Source: a virus
Virus record (IMG/VR): IMGVR_UViG_3300042899_000935
Coordinates: 1 to 24,662 of that record
Reading direction: 5' to 3' (one strand)
DNA length: 24,662 nucleotides
The notes under the pieces were generated by a model. The model was not told the origin of the DNA, made no database searches, and saw only the letters and a program-made list of their open reading frames with translations. This document shows, piece by piece, positions 258 through 23,585 of the stretch. Position 1 is the first letter of the stretch. The number at the start of each line of letters is the position of its first letter. The translations under genes and the position numbers were made by a program.

Positions 258-1124
258 ATGCAACACATTTGTAAAATTTGTAATCAAGAATTAACAAACC
301 CACAGGGGTTATCGGCTCATTGTCGTTTAAAACATAAAATGAAAGCTGAAGATGTTTATATCGAATACTTCTTAAATGGAATACCACCAACTTGTGCCTG
401 TGGTTGTGGTGAAAGACCAAAATATTTAGGTATTTATGAAGGCTTTAGAGAATATATTCACGGTCATATATCGAGGGTTCACAATAATTGGGGTCATAAT
501 AAAAAAGCTAATGATAAAGCACACGAAACTCAAAAAAAAATGCACCAAAATGGTGACTTAGTTATATGGAACAAAGGTCTAACCAAAGAAGTTGATGACC
601 GTTTGGGTTATGGTCAAAAAATTTCTGACAATAAAGAACGTTCTGAAAAAATATCCAAAGCTTTAAAAGGTCGTAAAAGACCAAAAAAAGTTTTGGAAAA
701 ATTAAATAAGGGTATGTTGGAGTATTGGTCCAAACCTGAGAATCGCGAACAAAGAAGATTAGATCAAGTTGAATATTTAAGAACCAAACAAATTAACAAA
801 AAATCCAAACTAGAACAAAAGTTTGAGGATTTATTAACCGAACTTAATATTCAATTTATTAATCAACATCCTTTAAATGGTTATCTATACGACTTCTATA
901 TTCCCAAACATAATATTTTAATTGAGGTTGATGGTGATTGGTTTCATTGTAATCCCGATGTTCATCCTGAGGCAATCCATGAAATTCAAAAGTTTGTTAA
1001 AGAAAATGATGAACGTAAAAATATAATCGCAAAAGAAAATAACATCCCGCTTTTAAGATTTTGGGAAAAAGATATAAATGATTCAATTGATTCTGTAAAA
1101 TCCAAATTATCTGAATATTTATAA
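258..1124 (+). CDS. Putative homing endonuclease: zinc finger + NUMOD3-like + Vsr-like nuclease
   Basis: The 288-residue protein starts with a C2H2-like finger (C5-x2-C8-x12-H21-x4-H26), followed by a CACGCG cluster (46-51) typical of phage homing endonucleases. A basic middle region around residues 130-165 resembles NUMOD3 DNA-binding repeats (SEKISKALKGRKRPKK). The C-terminal part (about 180-288) looks like a Vsr/EDxHD-type PD-(D/E)xK nuclease: an early Glu-rich helix, then YDFYIP, then IEVDGDWFH (E223, D225, H230), then LLRFWE near the end. Such free-standing enzymes cut alleles lacking the gene and spread by repair. The finger fixes the start at 258, which directly abuts a terminator stem, so expression probably depends on read-through and may be limited by the hairpin. 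The nuclease subfamily is inferred from motifs only. Confidence 0.82.
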   Translation: MQHICKICNQELTNPQGLSAHCRLKHKMKAEDVYIEYFLNGIPPTCACGCGERPKYLGIYEGFREYIHGHISRVHNNWGHNKKANDKAHETQKKMHQNGDLVIWNKGLTKEVDDRLGYGQKISDNKERSEKISKALKGRKRPKKVLEKLNKGMLEYWSKPENREQRRLDQVEYLRTKQINKKSKLEQKFEDLLTELNIQFINQHPLNGYLYDFYIPKHNILIEVDGDWFHCNPDVHPEAIHEIQKFVKENDERKNIIAKENNIPLLRFWEKDINDSIDSVKSKLSEYL

Positions 1125-1128
1125 TAAA

Positions 1129-1605
1129 ATGAAAAACCTTATCCGTAAAATATTAAAAGAAGAACAAGACGAGTTTGAATGGGCTCGTGGTTTTGATACT
1201 TCTGAGGCCGAAAAAATTGTCAAAAAACCTTTCATTCAAATAGAACGTAATTTTAATTTTGATGCTATTAACATTTATGATATGATAGTTGATGCTGGTA
1301 TTAGAGATATTAATAAATTAATGGAAATTGGTGATGAGTTGTATAATGAAGTAGATCGTGTTTACGAAGATGCTCGTGAGTCTGGTTATGAATCTGGTCG
1401 TGATTCTTGTGATTGTGATGGTTGTTGTGATGATTATGTTTATTATCAAGAAGCGGATAGGGAAAAAGAAGAAGCACGTGAAGAAGGTCGAGAAGAGGGT
1501 AGAGAGTCAGCACAAGAAGAAATCCAAGAATTAAAAGATAGAATAGAAGAATTAGAAAGTCAGTTAAATGAAACCTTTAATAAAAAAAATACTAAGAGAA
1601 TCTGA
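1129..1605 (+). CDS. Unknown acidic coiled-coil protein with KIL(K/R)E N-terminus
   Basis: I do not recognise a family for this 158-residue protein. It opens with MKNLIRKILKE, nearly the same as the next gene's N-terminus. The middle holds a compact Cys/Asp cluster (C94, C96, C99, C100 within RDSCDCDGCCDD), which could bind metal. Residues about 105-150 are a highly charged run of Glu/Arg heptads that should form a coiled coil. It starts 4 bases after the endonuclease stop and overlaps the next gene by 38 bases, so the two are probably translated from one message. The N-terminal LKE followed by E resembles the L/I-x-E cleavage rule of T4 prohead protease, suggesting (not proving) a packaged internal head protein. 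Confidence 0.72.
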   Translation: MKNLIRKILKEEQDEFEWARGFDTSEAEKIVKKPFIQIERNFNFDAINIYDMIVDAGIRDINKLMEIGDELYNEVDRVYEDARESGYESGRDSCDCDGCCDDYVYYQEADREKEEAREEGREEGRESAQEEIQELKDRIEELESQLNETFNKKNTKRI

Positions 1606-2047
1606 TTGGTTGGATGATTTATCTAATCAGTTTAGTGGTGTAGATTTACCATTTGAGGTTGCGTTAAACCCAATAAATAGACCAGCAAAATCAAATCTTT
1701 TTGTTATGAAAACTAGTTGGGACTACAGTGATGCTTATCTTAGAGAAGAATTTGTTTTTAATATGGAAAACCCAAGGTCTTTTGAAACCTTTGTTAATGT
1801 TTGTAAATTTTATTTGGTTTTATTAGACAATCGTGATTATAGTAGATGGAAAGATGTGTCAGCATTAGCTAAAAGTACTGGTTTGGCTTTAGGTTCTTTT
1901 GATGATGAAGAGGCTTACGGTACACCAAAAGATATGTCCGATTTTATCTTTGGTTCTGATTATCCCGCTCATCTTGAAAATGTTGAAATCTCTTATTTTG
2001 ATAAGGGTGGTGTTGAATACGGTGTTAGGTTAAAAGAACCTAATTAA
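1568..2047 (+). CDS. Unknown protein with KIL(K/R)E N-terminus
   Basis: This 159-residue protein of unknown function begins MKPLIKKILRES, paralleling MKNLIRKILKEE of the preceding gene, after which the two differ. The body is mixed acidic/aromatic (for example DNRDYSRWKDVSALAKST) without membrane segments or a motif I can name. Its first 38 bases overlap the end of the upstream gene in another frame, indicating translational coupling. It ends just before a bidirectional terminator shared with the leftward peptidase gene. The LRE-S junction at residues 9-12 fits the T4 prohead-protease site pattern (L/I-x-E then a small residue) better than its neighbour does. It could be head cargo or simply an accessory early protein. 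Confidence 0.72.
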   Translation: MKPLIKKILRESDWLDDLSNQFSGVDLPFEVALNPINRPAKSNLFVMKTSWDYSDAYLREEFVFNMENPRSFETFVNVCKFYLVLLDNRDYSRWKDVSALAKSTGLALGSFDDEEAYGTPKDMSDFIFGSDYPAHLENVEISYFDKGGVEYGVRLKEPN

Positions 2048-2050
2048 CAA

Positions 2051-2077
2051 AAAAGGGACCGTTAAGTCCCCCTTTAT
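2051..2077. terminator. Bidirectional terminator between convergent genes
   Basis: GGGAC (2055-2059) pairs with GTCCC (2066-2070) around a 6-base loop. The stem is flanked by an A run on the left (2049-2054) and a T-rich run on the right (2073-2080), so both strands show a GC stem followed by T's. It lies between the rightward gene ending at 2047 and the leftward peptidase ending at 2079, and probably serves both. Confidence 0.75.
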
Positions 2078-2078
2078 T

Positions 2079-3062
2079 TTACCAATCATAATCCTCATCC
2101 CACTCATTCCAACTTCTACTGTAATAATCATCTTTTTTACGGTCTGAATAAACATACTCACCACTATTAAAAATATCGTTCTCATCTTCATCATCTTCAA
2201 TCAAAAGTGTTTTTACTTCTTTTGTTTTAGTTTTAGAACTACCACTCCAATAAGTACTTAAATTATTGTAATTTTTATCTTCTTTTGGGTTTTCGTATTT
2301 GTTTTCACCCAATTCTTCAACAAGTTTTAAACCAAGTTCATAACCGTTTTGAACATCGTCAACAATAACATATTCATTATCTGTATGATAACGATAATAC
2401 CCAGCCGCCAAGTTTAAACAAGCAATATTAAATTTTTCCATGATTTGCCAAACATCGGTGTATGGATGGTATGCCCAATCAACAATACCATGTTCTTTAA
2501 TTAAACCTGTTACTTTATCCGCGAATTGTGATTTTTGGTTGAATAAATAACGACCCATTAATGTTAAACTCATTGATGCTCCACCTGGAGAATCATACTG
2601 AATTACATAACCAATATTCTCAAAAAACTTAGGGTCGGCATACATACTACCTTTACAACCAATTTCTTCTGAAACAAAAAATGCTGCTTTAACATTTGGT
2701 AATGTGTCTAACATTTCAAGAGCTAAATAAACACCACATTTATCATCACCACCAATACCTGAAGCTTTTTTGGTGACTTTGTCCATACCTGTAAGAATAA
2801 CACCATCTTCACCTTCTGTTTGAACAACAATCATATTCATATTAACAGGGTGAACCGTATCTGTATGTGCAACAAAACAAGGGAAGTTTTTACTAACACC
2901 TTTTGTAACATAAATATTACCGTGACTATCGGTATAGTGTTCATAACCTTTTTGGGTTAAAACTTTTTGTAAATACTCAATCATAAGTTTTTCGTTACGA
3001 GAGTGAGTCGGTACTGAAAGAACTTCAGTTAATCGAGTTAATTTATCTTGTGTCATTTTCAT
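2079..3062 (-). CDS. M20/peptidase T-like zinc metallopeptidase
   Basis: This 327-residue protein has the dizinc aminopeptidase signature set of the M20/M42/M28 clan, closest by eye to tripeptidase PepT: AHTDTVH (H66, D68), GIGGDDKCG (bridging Asp at 106/107), SEEIGCKG (E132 general base, E133 ligand), YDSPGG (D157) and YHTDNEYV (H226). These would let it cleave N-terminal residues from short peptides in the cytoplasm. At about 260 residues of catalytic core it is shorter than bacterial PepT (about 400), suggesting loss of the lid/dimerisation domain. The last ~65 residues are a Ser/Lys then Asp/Tyr-rich tail ending in WDEDYDW. It is transcribed against the tail genes, with a Bacteroidota-like -7 box just upstream. 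The start could be Met1 or Met3 (3056). A moron or host-derived gene is likely. Confidence 0.85.
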   Translation of the reverse strand: MKMTQDKLTRLTEVLSVPTHSRNEKLMIEYLQKVLTQKGYEHYTDSHGNIYVTKGVSKNFPCFVAHTDTVHPVNMNMIVVQTEGEDGVILTGMDKVTKKASGIGGDDKCGVYLALEMLDTLPNVKAAFFVSEEIGCKGSMYADPKFFENIGYVIQYDSPGGASMSLTLMGRYLFNQKSQFADKVTGLIKEHGIVDWAYHPYTDVWQIMEKFNIACLNLAAGYYRYHTDNEYVIVDDVQNGYELGLKLVEELGENKYENPKEDKNYNNLSTYWSGSSKTKTKEVKTLLIEDDEDENDIFNSGEYVYSDRKKDDYYSRSWNEWDEDYDW

Positions 3063-3066
3063 ATTA

Positions 3067-3074
3067 CAAATATA
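3067..3074 (-). promoter_or_regulatory. Bacteroidota -7-like box (TATATTTG) for the peptidase gene
   Basis: On the minus strand TATATTTG matches the Bacteroidota -7 consensus TAnnTTTG and lies 4 bases before the peptidase ATG at 3062 (10 bases before the alternative ATG at 3056). I see no clear -33 TTG at the expected spacing, so this is only half a promoter. If it is used, the message would be leaderless or start at the second Met. Confidence 0.4.
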
Positions 3075-3207
3075 AGAAGATTTTATTTAATAATAAAATT
3101 TTATTAAGGAAAAATTAAAATAAACCTATTTATGGTTATAATCTTTACTATTAAAAAATAAGTTTTAAGGTTAATTAGAATAATAAATTTAAAAAAAAGT
3201 TTTTATA

Positions 3208-3978
3208 ATGTCAAAACAACAAACACAAGAAATTCAATTTCAAGCCCCATTCGATGTTATTCCTTTGCCATCTAGAGGTCTTTTATACCCTGGACAACAA
3301 GGTGCTGTAAAAGTGGAATATATGACCGCAATGGATGAAAATATTTTAACATCACCCAATTTAATTAAAAGTGGGAAAGTTCTTGATGTTTTATTGGAAA
3401 GAAAAGTTAAAGAATCCCCAGTACCTTTTGAAGAATTATTAGTTGGTGATAGAAACGCAATCATGATTTGGTTACGTGCTACAGGTTACGGTGAAATGTA
3501 TCCTGTTAAATTAACTGACCCGACAAGTGGTGTTGAATTTGAAACTGAAATAGATTTATCTACTTTAAAAACAAAAGAACTACCAGAAGGTGTCGAACCA
3601 GATGAAAAAGGAGAATTTTCTTTCTTATTACCAAAATGTAAAAAGAAAATTAAATTTAGACTTTTAACCGTTGGTGATGAAAAATCTATTGTTAGTAGGT
3701 CTGAAAAATATGAGAAAGCAACAAAATCTCAAATTTCAAACGCTTTAACTTATAGACTACAAGCTCAGATTAAAGAAGTTGATGGTAATAGAGATATTAA
3801 CTACATCCAACAATTTGTTAATGTGATGCCAGCTTTTGATTCCCTTAAATTCAGAGAATATTCTGACTCAATTGAACCAGGTATAGATATGTCGGCCGAA
3901 GTGGAGGGACCGACAGGTACATTTCAAGCTCCAGTTACCCTCGGACTCAACTTTTTTTGGCCTAACGTCAGATTATAA
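3208..3978 (+). CDS. 26: T4 gp26-like baseplate/tail assembly protein
   Basis: This 256-residue protein contains the stretch PLPSRGLLYP followed by VKVEYMTAMDENILTSP and IKSGKVLDVLL, characteristic of the T4 gp26-type baseplate family and its relatives found before tape measures in contractile-tail phages. Its role is in baseplate hub or tail assembly, probably as a chaperone-like factor. A lysine-rich sub-region with paired Cys/Lys (LPKCKKKIKFRLL, about 146-158) is notable. The 3' end contains a run of seven T's (3952-3958). From there the +1/-2 frame stays open through the small gene at 4007-4147, so a 312-residue extended product is possible, analogous to lambda G/GT chaperones. The 146 bases before it hold no gene, only AT-rich sequence with a TATAAT at 3137-3142 and no good -35. 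Confidence 0.82.
   Translation: MSKQQTQEIQFQAPFDVIPLPSRGLLYPGQQGAVKVEYMTAMDENILTSPNLIKSGKVLDVLLERKVKESPVPFEELLVGDRNAIMIWLRATGYGEMYPVKLTDPTSGVEFETEIDLSTLKTKELPEGVEPDEKGEFSFLLPKCKKKIKFRLLTVGDEKSIVSRSEKYEKATKSQISNALTYRLQAQIKEVDGNRDINYIQQFVNVMPAFDSLKFREYSDSIEPGIDMSAEVEGPTGTFQAPVTLGLNFFWPNVRL
3952..3958 (+). other. Candidate +1/-2 frameshift site (T7 run)
   Basis: Near the 3' end of the gp26-like gene the codons read AAC TTT TTT TGG, with seven consecutive T's. A phenylalanine tRNA on the second TTT can re-pair perfectly after a +1 or a -2 slip. The resulting frame has no stop from 3959 to 4144 and runs straight into the small gene at 4007. Polymerase slippage on the run would give the same fusion. 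Confidence 0.45.
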
Positions 3979-4006
3979 TTTAAGTATTAAAAGAGAAATC
4001 TACTAT

Positions 4007-4147
4007 ATGGTAAAACATATGAGATTTTCTTATGAATCAGTTCAAAATATGCCAGTATGGGAAAGACGTATTTATCTTGATTTATGGCAAAAAGAACTTG
4101 AAGACCAGAAAAAAGAATACGATAAAGCAAAATCAAAAAGAAGATAA
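4007..4147 (+). CDS. Small protein, possible C-terminal extension of the gp26-like chaperone
   Basis: This is a 46-codon frame beginning MVKHMRFSYESVQNMPVWER. The segment MPVWERRIYLDLWQKE is followed by a Lys/Glu-rich helix, so it is a small, helical, charged protein. A second Met at codon 5 (4019) is an alternative start, and only a weak AGAGAAA precedes the first. It lies between the gp26-like gene and the tape measure, where lambda-like phages encode the T part of the G/GT assembly chaperone. Its frame is open upstream back to 3887, including the T7 run, with no ATG before 4007. It may therefore be made both alone and as a fusion. It ends 3 bases before a terminator stem. The family is not identified by name. 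Confidence 0.68.
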   Translation: MVKHMRFSYESVQNMPVWERRIYLDLWQKELEDQKKEYDKAKSKRR

Positions 4148-4150
4148 TTA

Positions 4151-4178
4151 AATGGGGTTAATAGCCCCATTTTTTATT
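4151..4178 (+). terminator. Intrinsic terminator after the small gene
   Basis: AATGGGG (4151-4157) pairs with CCCCATT (4165-4171) around a 7-base loop and runs into TTTTATTTA. It closes the gp26-like/small-gene transcript. An ATG at 4152 lies inside the left arm and is not a credible start for the next gene. Confidence 0.82.
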
Positions 4179-4189
4179 TACTTGATATT

Positions 4190-4197
4190 TATAAATA
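4190..4197 (+). promoter_or_regulatory. T4 late-promoter-like box TATAAATA
   Basis: An exact TATAAATA lies directly after a terminator and 11 bases before the preferred ATG at 4209. This is the T4-type late promoter core read by a gp55-like sigma factor. The embedded string ATATTTATA (4185-4193) recurs close to the starts at 8369 and 22202. No gp55 gene is visible in this window. Confidence 0.5.
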
Positions 4198-4208
4198 AAC
4201 ATTTTTCA

Positions 4209-5564
4209 ATGTCAGTAATTTTATTAAACAACAATAACTTTAAAAAACTTCTAAAAGAAGCTCCTATCTCTGGTGATAAAGCAGCTCAAGATATTGCTAA
4301 AGCTGAAGGTGGTATTGCTAAAGCAAAGGACAGGTTAGCTAGATTACAAATAACTGATATACCTGGATTGGATTCTATCAACACAATAGACCAATTAGCT
4401 ATAGAACCTTTTAAGTTTGATTTTTTACTACAAATCCCAGATAATCCTCAAGGACTTACTTTACCAGTACCACACCCATTTGAAACTTTGGCTCGTGTGG
4501 TTGAAAAAAACCCTTTGACTTTGGAGGTTAAGACTAATGAAGGTGTATTGTTTAAAATGATTTTTACAAAAGAGGAAGAATTAATTACACAACTACCAGG
4601 TACAAAAGAACCAATCATTGGTAAAAGTAATAAAGTTATGGCTTTAGTTTCTGAAGATGGTAAAGAAGAAGGTAAGTACTATTCAATACAATTCGATCAC
4701 GCTAAAGAACTTGTTGATGAAGCAAATAAAGAAAAAGAAAAAGGTGGGGTAGAAAGTGAAGAGGATAAAAAAAACAAAAGTGGAGAAACAAAAGGTGAGG
4801 AAACAGAAGGTGAGGGAACAGAAGGGGGTAAAAATAATAAAGAACAATTATTTAATGATTTAGCCGGATTTTTCAAATTTACATATAATAATAGAAGACT
4901 TGCTGCTCCAGAATTATTTCCAAAAGAAAAACGTAAAAATACGTTAGAGTCTTATATTAATCAAATAGCTAAAAAAGTTATTTTAATTAAAGAAGACGAT
5001 GAAGATGAGGGTGAGGGTGAGGAAGATAACTCAAAAGACCCAACTAAAATGACGGTTGAGAAAGATTACATTGGTCAAATTTATGTACAAACAATTGTTT
5101 TGGGTCCTAAGGCAAAAGCTAGAGCTGGTGAAGAAAAAAATAATTATGTGAATAAAGTAAATCAATCACAAAAGGGTCAAACAAAATGGGACGGTAATTT
5201 TAATAATTTACCAAAAGCAAAAGTAGGTCAAATCCCACCTACAGTAAATGTTGGTGGATTAAGTTTGGTTCTTGATGATAGCAATTTATCTCCTGAACAA
5301 GAAAGAATTTTTAAACAAATACAGGGTCTTTTAGGTAAAAGTAATTTTGAAGGTGAAACCACAATCAGAAGAAGTGCTAGAGATAAAGGCACTATTATAA
5401 TAGGGTTTCCAACACTTGGCGGTAAAAAAGCAATTGTTTGTAAATTATTAAATAAAGAAACAAATTTAATGAAAAATCTTAGTGTTGAAATTGCTCCAAA
5501 AATTACGGGAAATGATAAATTCACTGAATCAACAATAGCTAAAATACGAATTAAAAAACTTTAA
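4209..5564 (+). CDS. Unknown structural-type protein between assembly chaperone and tape measure
   Basis: This 451-residue protein is of unknown function. I chose ATG 4209 because the in-frame ATG at 4152 lies within a terminator hairpin and a TATAAATA box lies between the two. The N-terminus MSVILLNNNNFKKLLKEAP carries a KKLLKE-A segment like the KIL[KR]E peptides of the genes at 1129 and 1568. Residues about 20-190 and 320-451 look globular. Between them are two low-complexity acidic linkers (about 175-215, and about 262-280 with EDDEDEGEGEEDN). It ends 6 bases before the tape-measure gene, so it is probably in the same operon. Synteny suggests a tail or virion role. I found no catalytic motif. 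Confidence 0.75.
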   Translation: MSVILLNNNNFKKLLKEAPISGDKAAQDIAKAEGGIAKAKDRLARLQITDIPGLDSINTIDQLAIEPFKFDFLLQIPDNPQGLTLPVPHPFETLARVVEKNPLTLEVKTNEGVLFKMIFTKEEELITQLPGTKEPIIGKSNKVMALVSEDGKEEGKYYSIQFDHAKELVDEANKEKEKGGVESEEDKKNKSGETKGEETEGEGTEGGKNNKEQLFNDLAGFFKFTYNNRRLAAPELFPKEKRKNTLESYINQIAKKVILIKEDDEDEGEGEEDNSKDPTKMTVEKDYIGQIYVQTIVLGPKAKARAGEEKNNYVNKVNQSQKGQTKWDGNFNNLPKAKVGQIPPTVNVGGLSLVLDDSNLSPEQERIFKQIQGLLGKSNFEGETTIRRSARDKGTIIIGFPTLGGKKAIVCKLLNKETNLMKNLSVEIAPKITGNDKFTESTIAKIRIKKL

Positions 5565-22463: not shown

Positions 22464-23585
22464 ATGAATAAATTAAGCGAAGATTTAAAAAGACATAGAG
22501 AACTTCTTGGTTACGATCCAACTAAAGGTACAACTACCTTAACTGAAGTGAGAAGACATACCTATACCATGGATGAGGAAAACACTGATTATGCTGACGA
22601 AGAAGAAACCGAAACAGAAGAAACTGAAACTGAAGAAGGTGAAGACAATCCAGATTTTGATTTTGGTGGTGAAGAGGGAACTGAAGAAGAAGGTGGGGAA
22701 GAAGAAACAGATGATGAGTTTGGAACCGCTGATGAATTCAGTGCGGTTGATGATATTGAATCTGAAGAAGATTCTGATACAGAAGAAATTGATGTTACTG
22801 ATATTGTAAAAAGAGCTGACGATGCTAAAGGTTACGCTGAAAAGGCTGTAACAGCTGCTGAAGAAGGTAAAAACATGATTCAAGATTTAATGACTAAATT
22901 TGAGGCATTACAAACATCTCTTTCCAAAATAGATACGGTATCCAATGAAATCCAATCAATGAAAAAAGATATCCAATCTCAAAGGCCAAAAGAAAAATTA
23001 GAATTACGTTCTTTAGACTCATATCCTTTTAATGTAAAACTTACTGATTATTGGAATGATGAGAAAATAAAAGCTAATTACGAGATTAATGGCGGAACAC
23101 CTGATGCTGAAAGTCCAGATGGTGAAGTTAAGGTTTGGAAATTAGACCCAAATGAAGCTAAAGATTTTAGTACTGTTGATATTAAAAAATCTTTTGTTCC
23201 TGAGTCAAAATCTAAAAAAAAGGTTTTAACTGAGAATTTAATTCTAAATAGTAGACAACAAACACAGTTTATTGATTTATTAAAAAATGAATTACCACAT
23301 GAGTATAGAATAATGGTTGGTGGAATGACTGAAAGTGGTATAGATTTTTATGATATAGAAAAGGATGGTGGTAAACATGTTTCACTAACCTTAAACGATG
23401 TCAACAGTCCAGAACAATACATAACTCTATTTAGAATGGATGAATGGGATGAAGATTTTTTAGGTGATTACAAAAAGATTGGATCTTCAGTAGAAGAAAT
23501 CTTTTACAACGTTAAAGATAATTTGATTAGAGATATTAAAAAATCTTTTGTTCCTGAGTCAAAATCTAAAAAAAGAAGAATTTAA
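22464..23585 (+). CDS. Unknown acidic protein with duplicated KSFVPESKSKK tail
   Basis: This 373-residue protein starts MNKLSEDLKRHRELLGYDP and contains TTTLTEV (a possible L-x-E cleavage site at 27-29). A very acidic Glu/Thr/Asp region follows (about 38-115, with TETEETETEEGED). Then comes a coiled coil (about 120-170), a short linker domain, and a C-terminal domain from about 255 (NSRQQTQFIDLLKNELPHEY). The sequence DIKKSFVPESKSKK occurs twice, at about 239-252 and at the C-terminus, encoded by an exact 43-base repeat. No family is recognised. The acidic-linker/coiled-coil layout fits a virion-internal or scaffold-like protein, or an acidic DNA mimic, but nothing decides it. A strong terminator follows, so it ends the transcript before gp32. 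Confidence 0.72.
   Translation: MNKLSEDLKRHRELLGYDPTKGTTTLTEVRRHTYTMDEENTDYADEEETETEETETEEGEDNPDFDFGGEEGTEEEGGEEETDDEFGTADEFSAVDDIESEEDSDTEEIDVTDIVKRADDAKGYAEKAVTAAEEGKNMIQDLMTKFEALQTSLSKIDTVSNEIQSMKKDIQSQRPKEKLELRSLDSYPFNVKLTDYWNDEKIKANYEINGGTPDAESPDGEVKVWKLDPNEAKDFSTVDIKKSFVPESKSKKKVLTENLILNSRQQTQFIDLLKNELPHEYRIMVGGMTESGIDFYDIEKDGGKHVSLTLNDVNSPEQYITLFRMDEWDEDFLGDYKKIGSSVEEIFYNVKDNLIRDIKKSFVPESKSKKRRI
23178..23220 (+). repeat. 43-bp exact direct repeat, copy 1
   Basis: Identical to 23532-23574 and separated from it by exactly 354 bases (118 codons), so both copies are read in the same frame as DIKKSFVPESKSKK. After this copy the frame continues as KVLTEN. Confidence 0.93.
23532..23574 (+). 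repeat. 43-bp exact direct repeat, copy 2
   Basis: Identical to 23178-23220. Here the repeat forms the protein's end, followed only by RRI and the stop codon. Confidence 0.93.

Follow-up and report, generated by a model that had tools for sequence, protein, structure and literature searches.

IMG/VR virus record IMGVR_UViG_3300042899_000935 (24,662 nt, analysed over its whole length and hereafter called the window) is a fragment of a T4-like myovirus. Three open reading frames (ORFs) in it, starting at 1129, 1568 and 4209, encode proteins with short N-terminal leaders that end in LxE (Table 1). The original prediction, made from the letters of this stretch, held that the three N-termini are nearly alike and could be capsid-targeting signals removed by a prohead protease, as in phage T4. 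All three leaders were located where predicted. Those of ORFs 1129 and 1568 fit a single pattern, MK.LI[KR][KQ]IL[KR]E (class 1); that of ORF 4209 does not match the pattern and resembles the other two by its junction only.

Table 1. Positions of leaders, bodies, boxes and other genes in the window (a slash marks the predicted cut).
Feature	Position	Strand	Basis or remark
TATTTAT box, ends 6 nt 5' of the ORF 1129 ATG; late-promoter candidate	1116..1122	+	sequence, box enrichment
Class-1 leader MKNLIRKILKE of ORF 1129	1129..1161	+	predicted cut after Glu11, next residue E
Body of ORF 1129; helical, Cys-rich CxxCxxCCDD-like stretch and coiled coil	1162..1605	+	alignment
Class-1 leader MKPLIKKILRE of ORF 1568, overlapping the 3' end of ORF 1129	1568..1600	+	next residue S
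Body of ORF 1568; alpha/beta	1601..2047	+	AlphaFold2, Foldseek
Baseplate hub	3208		family match
TATTTAT box before ORF 4209	4186..4192	+	sequence; also before the L086 relative
Leader MSVILLNNNNFKKLLKE of ORF 4209	4209..4259	+	predicted cut after Glu17, next residue A
Body of ORF 4209, 5' of the tape-measure-like gene	4260..5564	+	family search
Tape-measure-like gene	5571		position and relatives
gp53-like wedge	13318		family match
Possible additional leader of acidic protein (28 amino acids, ends TLTE/V)	22464..22547	+	by eye, weak
gp32-like single-stranded DNA-binding protein	23705		family match

In the family of ORF 1129, Glu11 is invariant in an alignment of nine sequences; most members have class-1 leaders, and two have ends resembling class 3 (KLVQKIIKE and KLVVKIIKE; see below). 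Family searches with its body returned low-complexity coiled-coil matches only. Relatives of ORF 1568, 38-65% identical to it overall, keep I5, K6, K7, I8, L9 and E11 of the leader invariant. AlphaFold2 models of the two proteins were of low to middling confidence, with a mean predicted local distance difference test score (pLDDT) of 63.6 for ORF 1129 and 66.6 for ORF 1568 (predicted template modelling score 0.67 for the latter). The leader block, at pLDDT 47 and 31, respectively, was the least certain part of the models or nearly so, as expected for a loose extension. With the model of ORF 1568, Foldseek found uncharacterised phage proteins in BFVD (best E 2.4e-6, a protein of Vibrio phage pVp-1) and no match in the PDB at E<=0.001. 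Family searches assigned the bodies of ORFs 1568 and 4209 to no convincing family. The longest ORF in the frame of ORF 4209 begins at 4152, and a relative in locus L086 favours the start at 4209. This relative, the only one whose N-terminus could be read and whose leader differs, has IMTE/A at the leader end in place of LLKE/A. Since just the [LM]xE/A junction is common to the two, ORF 4209 is a weaker third case.

The class-1 pattern, written as a degenerate sequence of 33 bases, matched the window twice (1129 and 1568) and had no match in 100 dinucleotide shuffles. A scan of IMG/VR with it yielded at least 153 matches in at least 119 stretches, corresponding to at least 138 distinct proteins. 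The search of relatives that had been proposed with the prediction thus returned, among the matches listed, at least 133 distinct proteins in other viral contigs whose ORFs are of at least 50 amino acids or open to the contig end; 11 of the 133 have an in-frame ATG further upstream. In prokaryote genomes (genome_contigs, 257 Gb), the pattern was found in 14 stretches, and real leader genes were clear in just one of them. Abundance in viral contigs and near absence from prokaryote genomes indicate that the signal is viral. The one clear case (L268) is a phage-like contig of 63,985 bases in the Prochlorococcus single-cell genome AG-409-L21, with three leader genes; an IMG/VR virus contig (L089) is equally 63,985 bases long. 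With up to three mismatches allowed, no convincing class-1 leader was found in the T4-like Tenacibaculum phage PTm1, Flavobacterium phage immuto or Microcystis phage Mel-JY01. The class-1 leaders listed comprise 49 peptides encoded by 112 distinct 33-mers, and the signal is therefore mainly one of the peptide. The isoleucine codons of these leaders (L002-L120) were also recorded: Ile8 is ATA in 114/133 of those listed and Ile5 in 31/133.

N-terminal motifs were then sought in eight phage records. In addition to class 1, we distinguished class 2 (example, MNLQEHIRKVLREE), class 3 (example, MKKIIRLTESDLTRIVKRVIKE) and class 4 (example, MKIIITESQYK.LIE). Any of the four motifs occurred at 88 of 2303 ORF N-termini, compared with 2 of 1495 at residues 61-105, and the number of leader genes per record ranged from 1/563 ORFs (G006) to 20/180 (G022). 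A general test for [ILVMFY][ILVM]xE, at residues 6-23 versus 61-78, gave 61 versus 13 of 147 in G022 and a smaller excess in the other seven records; the same test gave no excess in stretches of PTm1 (1 versus 2 of 47) and immuto (1 versus 1 of 24). A phage collection queried with a 24-residue class-3 leader gave no match, which probably reflects low-complexity filtering and is not evidence of absence.

The proteins behind these leaders are largely unrelated to one another, as had been claimed for the three in the window: 266 leader-bearing proteins fell into 134 body clusters. More than one leader class was present in 14 of the 49 clusters with several members, and, with a looser definition of class, 102 of 364 homologous leader-bearing pairs differed in class. 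In contig L071, one body is present in two copies, one behind MKIIITESQYKRLIE and the other behind MKYLIKKILKE. The leader system comprises at least four classes plus a T4-like one (see below), swapped on homologous bodies. The idea that one prefix could be used to find all cargo genes of the lineage was therefore too simple; the class-1 prefix alone would miss most of them.

We aligned 126 of the 134 cluster representatives (eight short ones were omitted) together with L065. Because the invariant Glu column of this alignment (A1) is partly due to its construction, we relied on counts in which the residue before the presumed cut (P1) was left free. In class 1, P1 was Glu in 111/113 proteins and Asp in none; the residue after P1 was varied and was Asp 10 times. 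When class-3 leaders were selected on their first half only, Glu was at the main position in 97/121, most of the others resembling a longer variant with Glu shifted; in whole records, it was present in 25/26. The junction of class 4 is less fixed (Leu13 in 16/25, Glu15 in 10/25). The xE of the leaders is usually preceded by two hydrophobic residues. As judged from these sequences, all or most leader classes end in [LI]xE, the cutting rule of T4 gp21. T4 gp21 cleaves after L/I-X-E; targeting by the T4 leader involves its residues 4 and 7 and processing its residues 8 and 10, and Asp at position 10 stops processing but not targeting (PMC9026906). Absence of Asp from P1 is what selection for cutting would predict.

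A protease of the gp21 type (Peptidase S77) was found in 16 of 24 records behind the leader loci, and the capsid protein gp23 also in 16 of 24, all above the Pfam cut-off; records of this set without gp21 or gp23 may be fragments. The protease that the original prediction called for could not be found in the 24.7-kb window, itself a fragment, and is present in its closest long relative, G005. In 14 of 15 loci, the major capsid protein (MCP) begins with about 60 conserved residues, a propeptide whose end is LINE/ (LLNE/ in one); from the 15th locus none was extracted. The counterpart junction of the T4 capsid protein is FLTE/A. With Glu nearly constant at P1, Asp absent and the same kind of site in MCP, the proposed parallel with T4 internal protein III and gp21 held up in those of its parts that computation could address.

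A close likeness to T4 was seen in two very large phages. A body that we take to be of DHH type (it had no Pfam match) stands behind several leader types. In eight aquatic records its leaders are 7 to 19 residues long, including MKNLIRKILKEEGQRLLNE/SG, MKIIITESQYKQLIKE/SG, MKRLIKE/SG and MIISENILQALLVE/TG, and all have [LI]xE before S/T-G; one further relative is incomplete. The starts of this body in LR745206 and LR756502, uncultured phages of 635 and 642 kb, are MISKYNQFINE/E and MLRKYGQFINE/E, and those of the CCA-adding enzyme are MILKKYKMFLE/S and MIITKYAKFLE/S. T4 ipII and ipIII begin MKTYQEFIAE/A. Tyr4, Phe7, Ile8 and Glu10 of this leader are all matched by the DHH leader of LR745206 and by KKYNQFIKE. 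In the first 320 kb of LR745206, a strict KKYNQFIKE-type pattern was found at 13/443 ORF starts versus 0/307 internal stretches, and gp23 was above the Pfam cut-off in both phages. A leader proven to load capsids in T4 therefore has a close match on the same enzymes that carry class-1 and class-4 leaders elsewhere.

Many leader genes share an upstream box. TATTTAT was present within 60 nt upstream of 41/62 leader genes (copies that also occur in other loci removed; 88 genes without that removal) versus 442/2143 other genes (Fisher p 4e-14). The box was also found upstream of 12/17 sheath rows and 13/18 tube rows, most sheath misses being ORFs without a true start, and upstream of 1/7 PhoH rows and 0/2 ribonucleotide reductase rows; before MCP genes it was not found in the 50 nt examined. 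A prefix common also in cytoplasmic early proteins had been named beforehand as a finding that would speak against the proposal; among DNA polymerase and UvsX genes, 0/10 had a leader or the box. TATTTAT would be the late promoter of this phage group. In many leader genes it lies 4-7 nt before the start codon, which suggests that the late mRNAs have almost no untranslated leader. The T4-type late promoter is TATAAATA. A candidate of that type on the coding strand, ATAAATA, was upstream of 4/62 leader genes versus 219/2143 others and was rejected in favour of TATTTAT. In the window, TATTTAT stands upstream of the genes at 258, 1129, 3208, 4209 and 8369; in loci L167-L257, too, it is found in front of genes of late type.

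Most leader-bearing bodies belong to unknown families. Those recognised include an Fe/Mn superoxide dismutase, a tRNA nucleotidyltransferase with a 2H-type tail, Nudix, a P-loop kinase and lysozyme, and PHROGs added families of RNA ligase, polynucleotide kinase and HNH nuclease. Relatives of the CCA-adding enzyme in three other phages begin past the leader position (3/3).

We consider it probable, at roughly 80%, that the leaders function as T4-type capsid-targeting propeptides and form an expanded, modular system that pre-loads the head with enzymes for RNA repair, DHH proteins, superoxide dismutase, lysozyme and others. The modularity of the leaders, their fixed end, their co-occurrence with the protease and the MCP site, their association with the box and their absence from the replication proteins tested are observed. 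We infer core binding, cutting and packaging and, by analogy with T4, injection. Late in infection, leader-bearing proteins would bind the prohead core via the leader; the gp21-type serine protease, as the shared site suggests, would cut after Glu of [LI]xE and free the mature protein inside the head; and the cargo would enter the next host together with the DNA.

Several observations weigh against this interpretation. Three lysozymes carry leaders, which would be unexpected of proteins that work in lysis alone (a lysozyme carried in the head is possible), and some relatives of tagged enzymes, namely Nudix proteins and the CCA-adding enzyme of G006, have none. The number of leaders is uneven, and G006, with both protease and MCP, has the single one in 563 ORFs. 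Tyr4 and Phe7, important in T4, are absent from class-1 leaders, so class 1 would be an analogue of the T4 sequence and not that sequence itself. In LR745206, neither a looser Y..F.E pattern (41/443 versus 27/307) nor the generic site pattern (37 versus 28 of 331) was enriched, and the S77 matches in LR745206 and LR756502 were below the Pfam cut-off. Codon identity between equal leader peptides was 0.674, compared with 0.556 expected from the codon usage of the bodies; shared descent may thus explain part of the likeness.

Carriers might instead be mainly scaffold-like proteins of the prohead core, assembly parts that are cut in the prohead and then mostly expelled. Some leader genes do adjoin those for protease and MCP (L240:4725, L219:5489), like T4 genes 67 and 68, and most core fragments of T4 exit the head (PMC9026906). 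However, enzyme domains for which a part in a scaffold is not apparent (superoxide dismutase, tRNA nucleotidyltransferase, Nudix, lysozyme, kinase) are present in many carriers, and we regard this explanation as unlikely for the carriers in general. Some of them may nonetheless be core proteins and not injected cargo. Much less probable is an amphipathic helix that stays uncut and tethers proteins to the host membrane or elsewhere in the cell. Class-1 leaders are basic, amphipathic and helical in the AlphaFold2 predictions, but an anchor would leave unexplained the near-invariant Glu without Asp, the like junction at the end of MCP propeptides, the minimal leaders of 7 amino acids and the exchange with a T4-like leader. 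We give least credence to a DNA or RNA element, a start-region cassette of late, nearly leaderless mRNAs: the position of TATTTAT, the ATA codon preferred for Ile8 and the raised codon identity would suit it, but the peptides listed are encoded by more than twice as many 33-mers, sheath and tube genes have the same box without the peptide, and leader classes differ in sequence yet keep the same end.

Propeptides of the T4 kind thus remain the preferred explanation. Like the capsid-targeting sequence of T4 internal proteins IPI-IPIII, the leaders are short, end in [LI]xE and stand on otherwise unrelated proteins in company with a gp21-type protease, and the type found in the 635-642-kb phages has the T4 residues. 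Unlike in T4, there are at least four further classes that do not resemble the T4 leader and are swapped between bodies, up to 20 leader genes per record compared with T4's handful, and recognisable enzymes as cargo, and the phages are jumbo phages of Bacteroidota type. By eye, ORFs near the protease in L159, L161, L163 and L166 look like bS21. The bS21-encoding Bacteroidetes phages, probably the same group, reach 331 kb, and their genes for prohead protease, MCP and TerL lie near one another; the available part of that paper deals with bS21 and late expression, not with N-terminal leaders (PMC9723584). From this resemblance, the hosts are probably Bacteroidota, and the leader proteins probably belong to a group of T4-like jumbo phages that infect them. 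In the giant phages phiKZ, 201phi2-1 and SPN3US, several head and ejected proteins are likewise cleaved behind a Glu by a protease resembling gp21; the motif in phiKZ is S/A-X-E, and many propeptides have 111-254 residues (PMC9026906, PMC10052503), whereas the leaders described here have about 7-25 and fall into recurrent sequence classes. Our literature search found no description of these leaders in the partial texts it returned.

If the interpretation is right, many genes of unknown function, in phages that are abundant and mostly uncultured, could be picked out by sequence as a class of predicted head cargo, injected when infection begins. The injected head proteins of T-even phages are diverse anti-defence agents with the leader as their only link (PMC3012670, PMC12373910), and a search for leaders could therefore bring many counter-defence proteins to light. 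The leaders might also serve as tags with which to load capsids with foreign proteins. More tentatively, and with somewhat less than even confidence, we suggest that a general head-loading code operates in large T4-like Bacteroidota phages and, separately, in lineages whose genomes exceed 600 kb. Dozens of enzymes would be directed into one capsid by interchangeable N-terminal zip codes and delivered along with the genome; among them would be RNA repair, nucleotide and redox enzymes, lysozyme and perhaps anti-defence proteins. How much is loaded, or where, may depend on the leader class, and an existing gene would acquire its tag when a leader is fused in front of it.

Other observations concern neighbouring sequences. 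An F-D-W-like motif lies within 20 residues past the cut site in 16/76 class-1 families, compared with 0/76 further in and 24/3395 untagged proteins (loci L005, L019, L022, L034, L050, L051, L061, L068, L076, L077, L101, L108 and others); it is perhaps a second shared module. In the 484-kb phage LR756508 (L259, 160792-185520), ORFs around MCP begin MRLKNVLLKE, MKLKGILKE, MKFKELLKE and similar, another leader type. Assignment of its ORFs beginning M[KR].K..LL.E to Alt-like ADP-ribosyltransferases was dropped, PHROGs giving unknown families only. In the window, the acidic protein at 22464-23585, near gp32, has an N-terminal stretch that by eye, without motif statistics, ends in [LI]xE in 9/9 N-termini (the window and eight relatives) despite divergence, and is possibly a further propeptide protein. 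Adjoining the leader genes, ORF 258-1124 encodes a zinc-finger-like N-terminus and a DUF559 nuclease-like domain and is perhaps a homing-type gene. At 2079-3062 on the minus strand lies a gene for an M42/M20-like peptidase (phrog_4191), with close relatives in many leader-bearing contigs.

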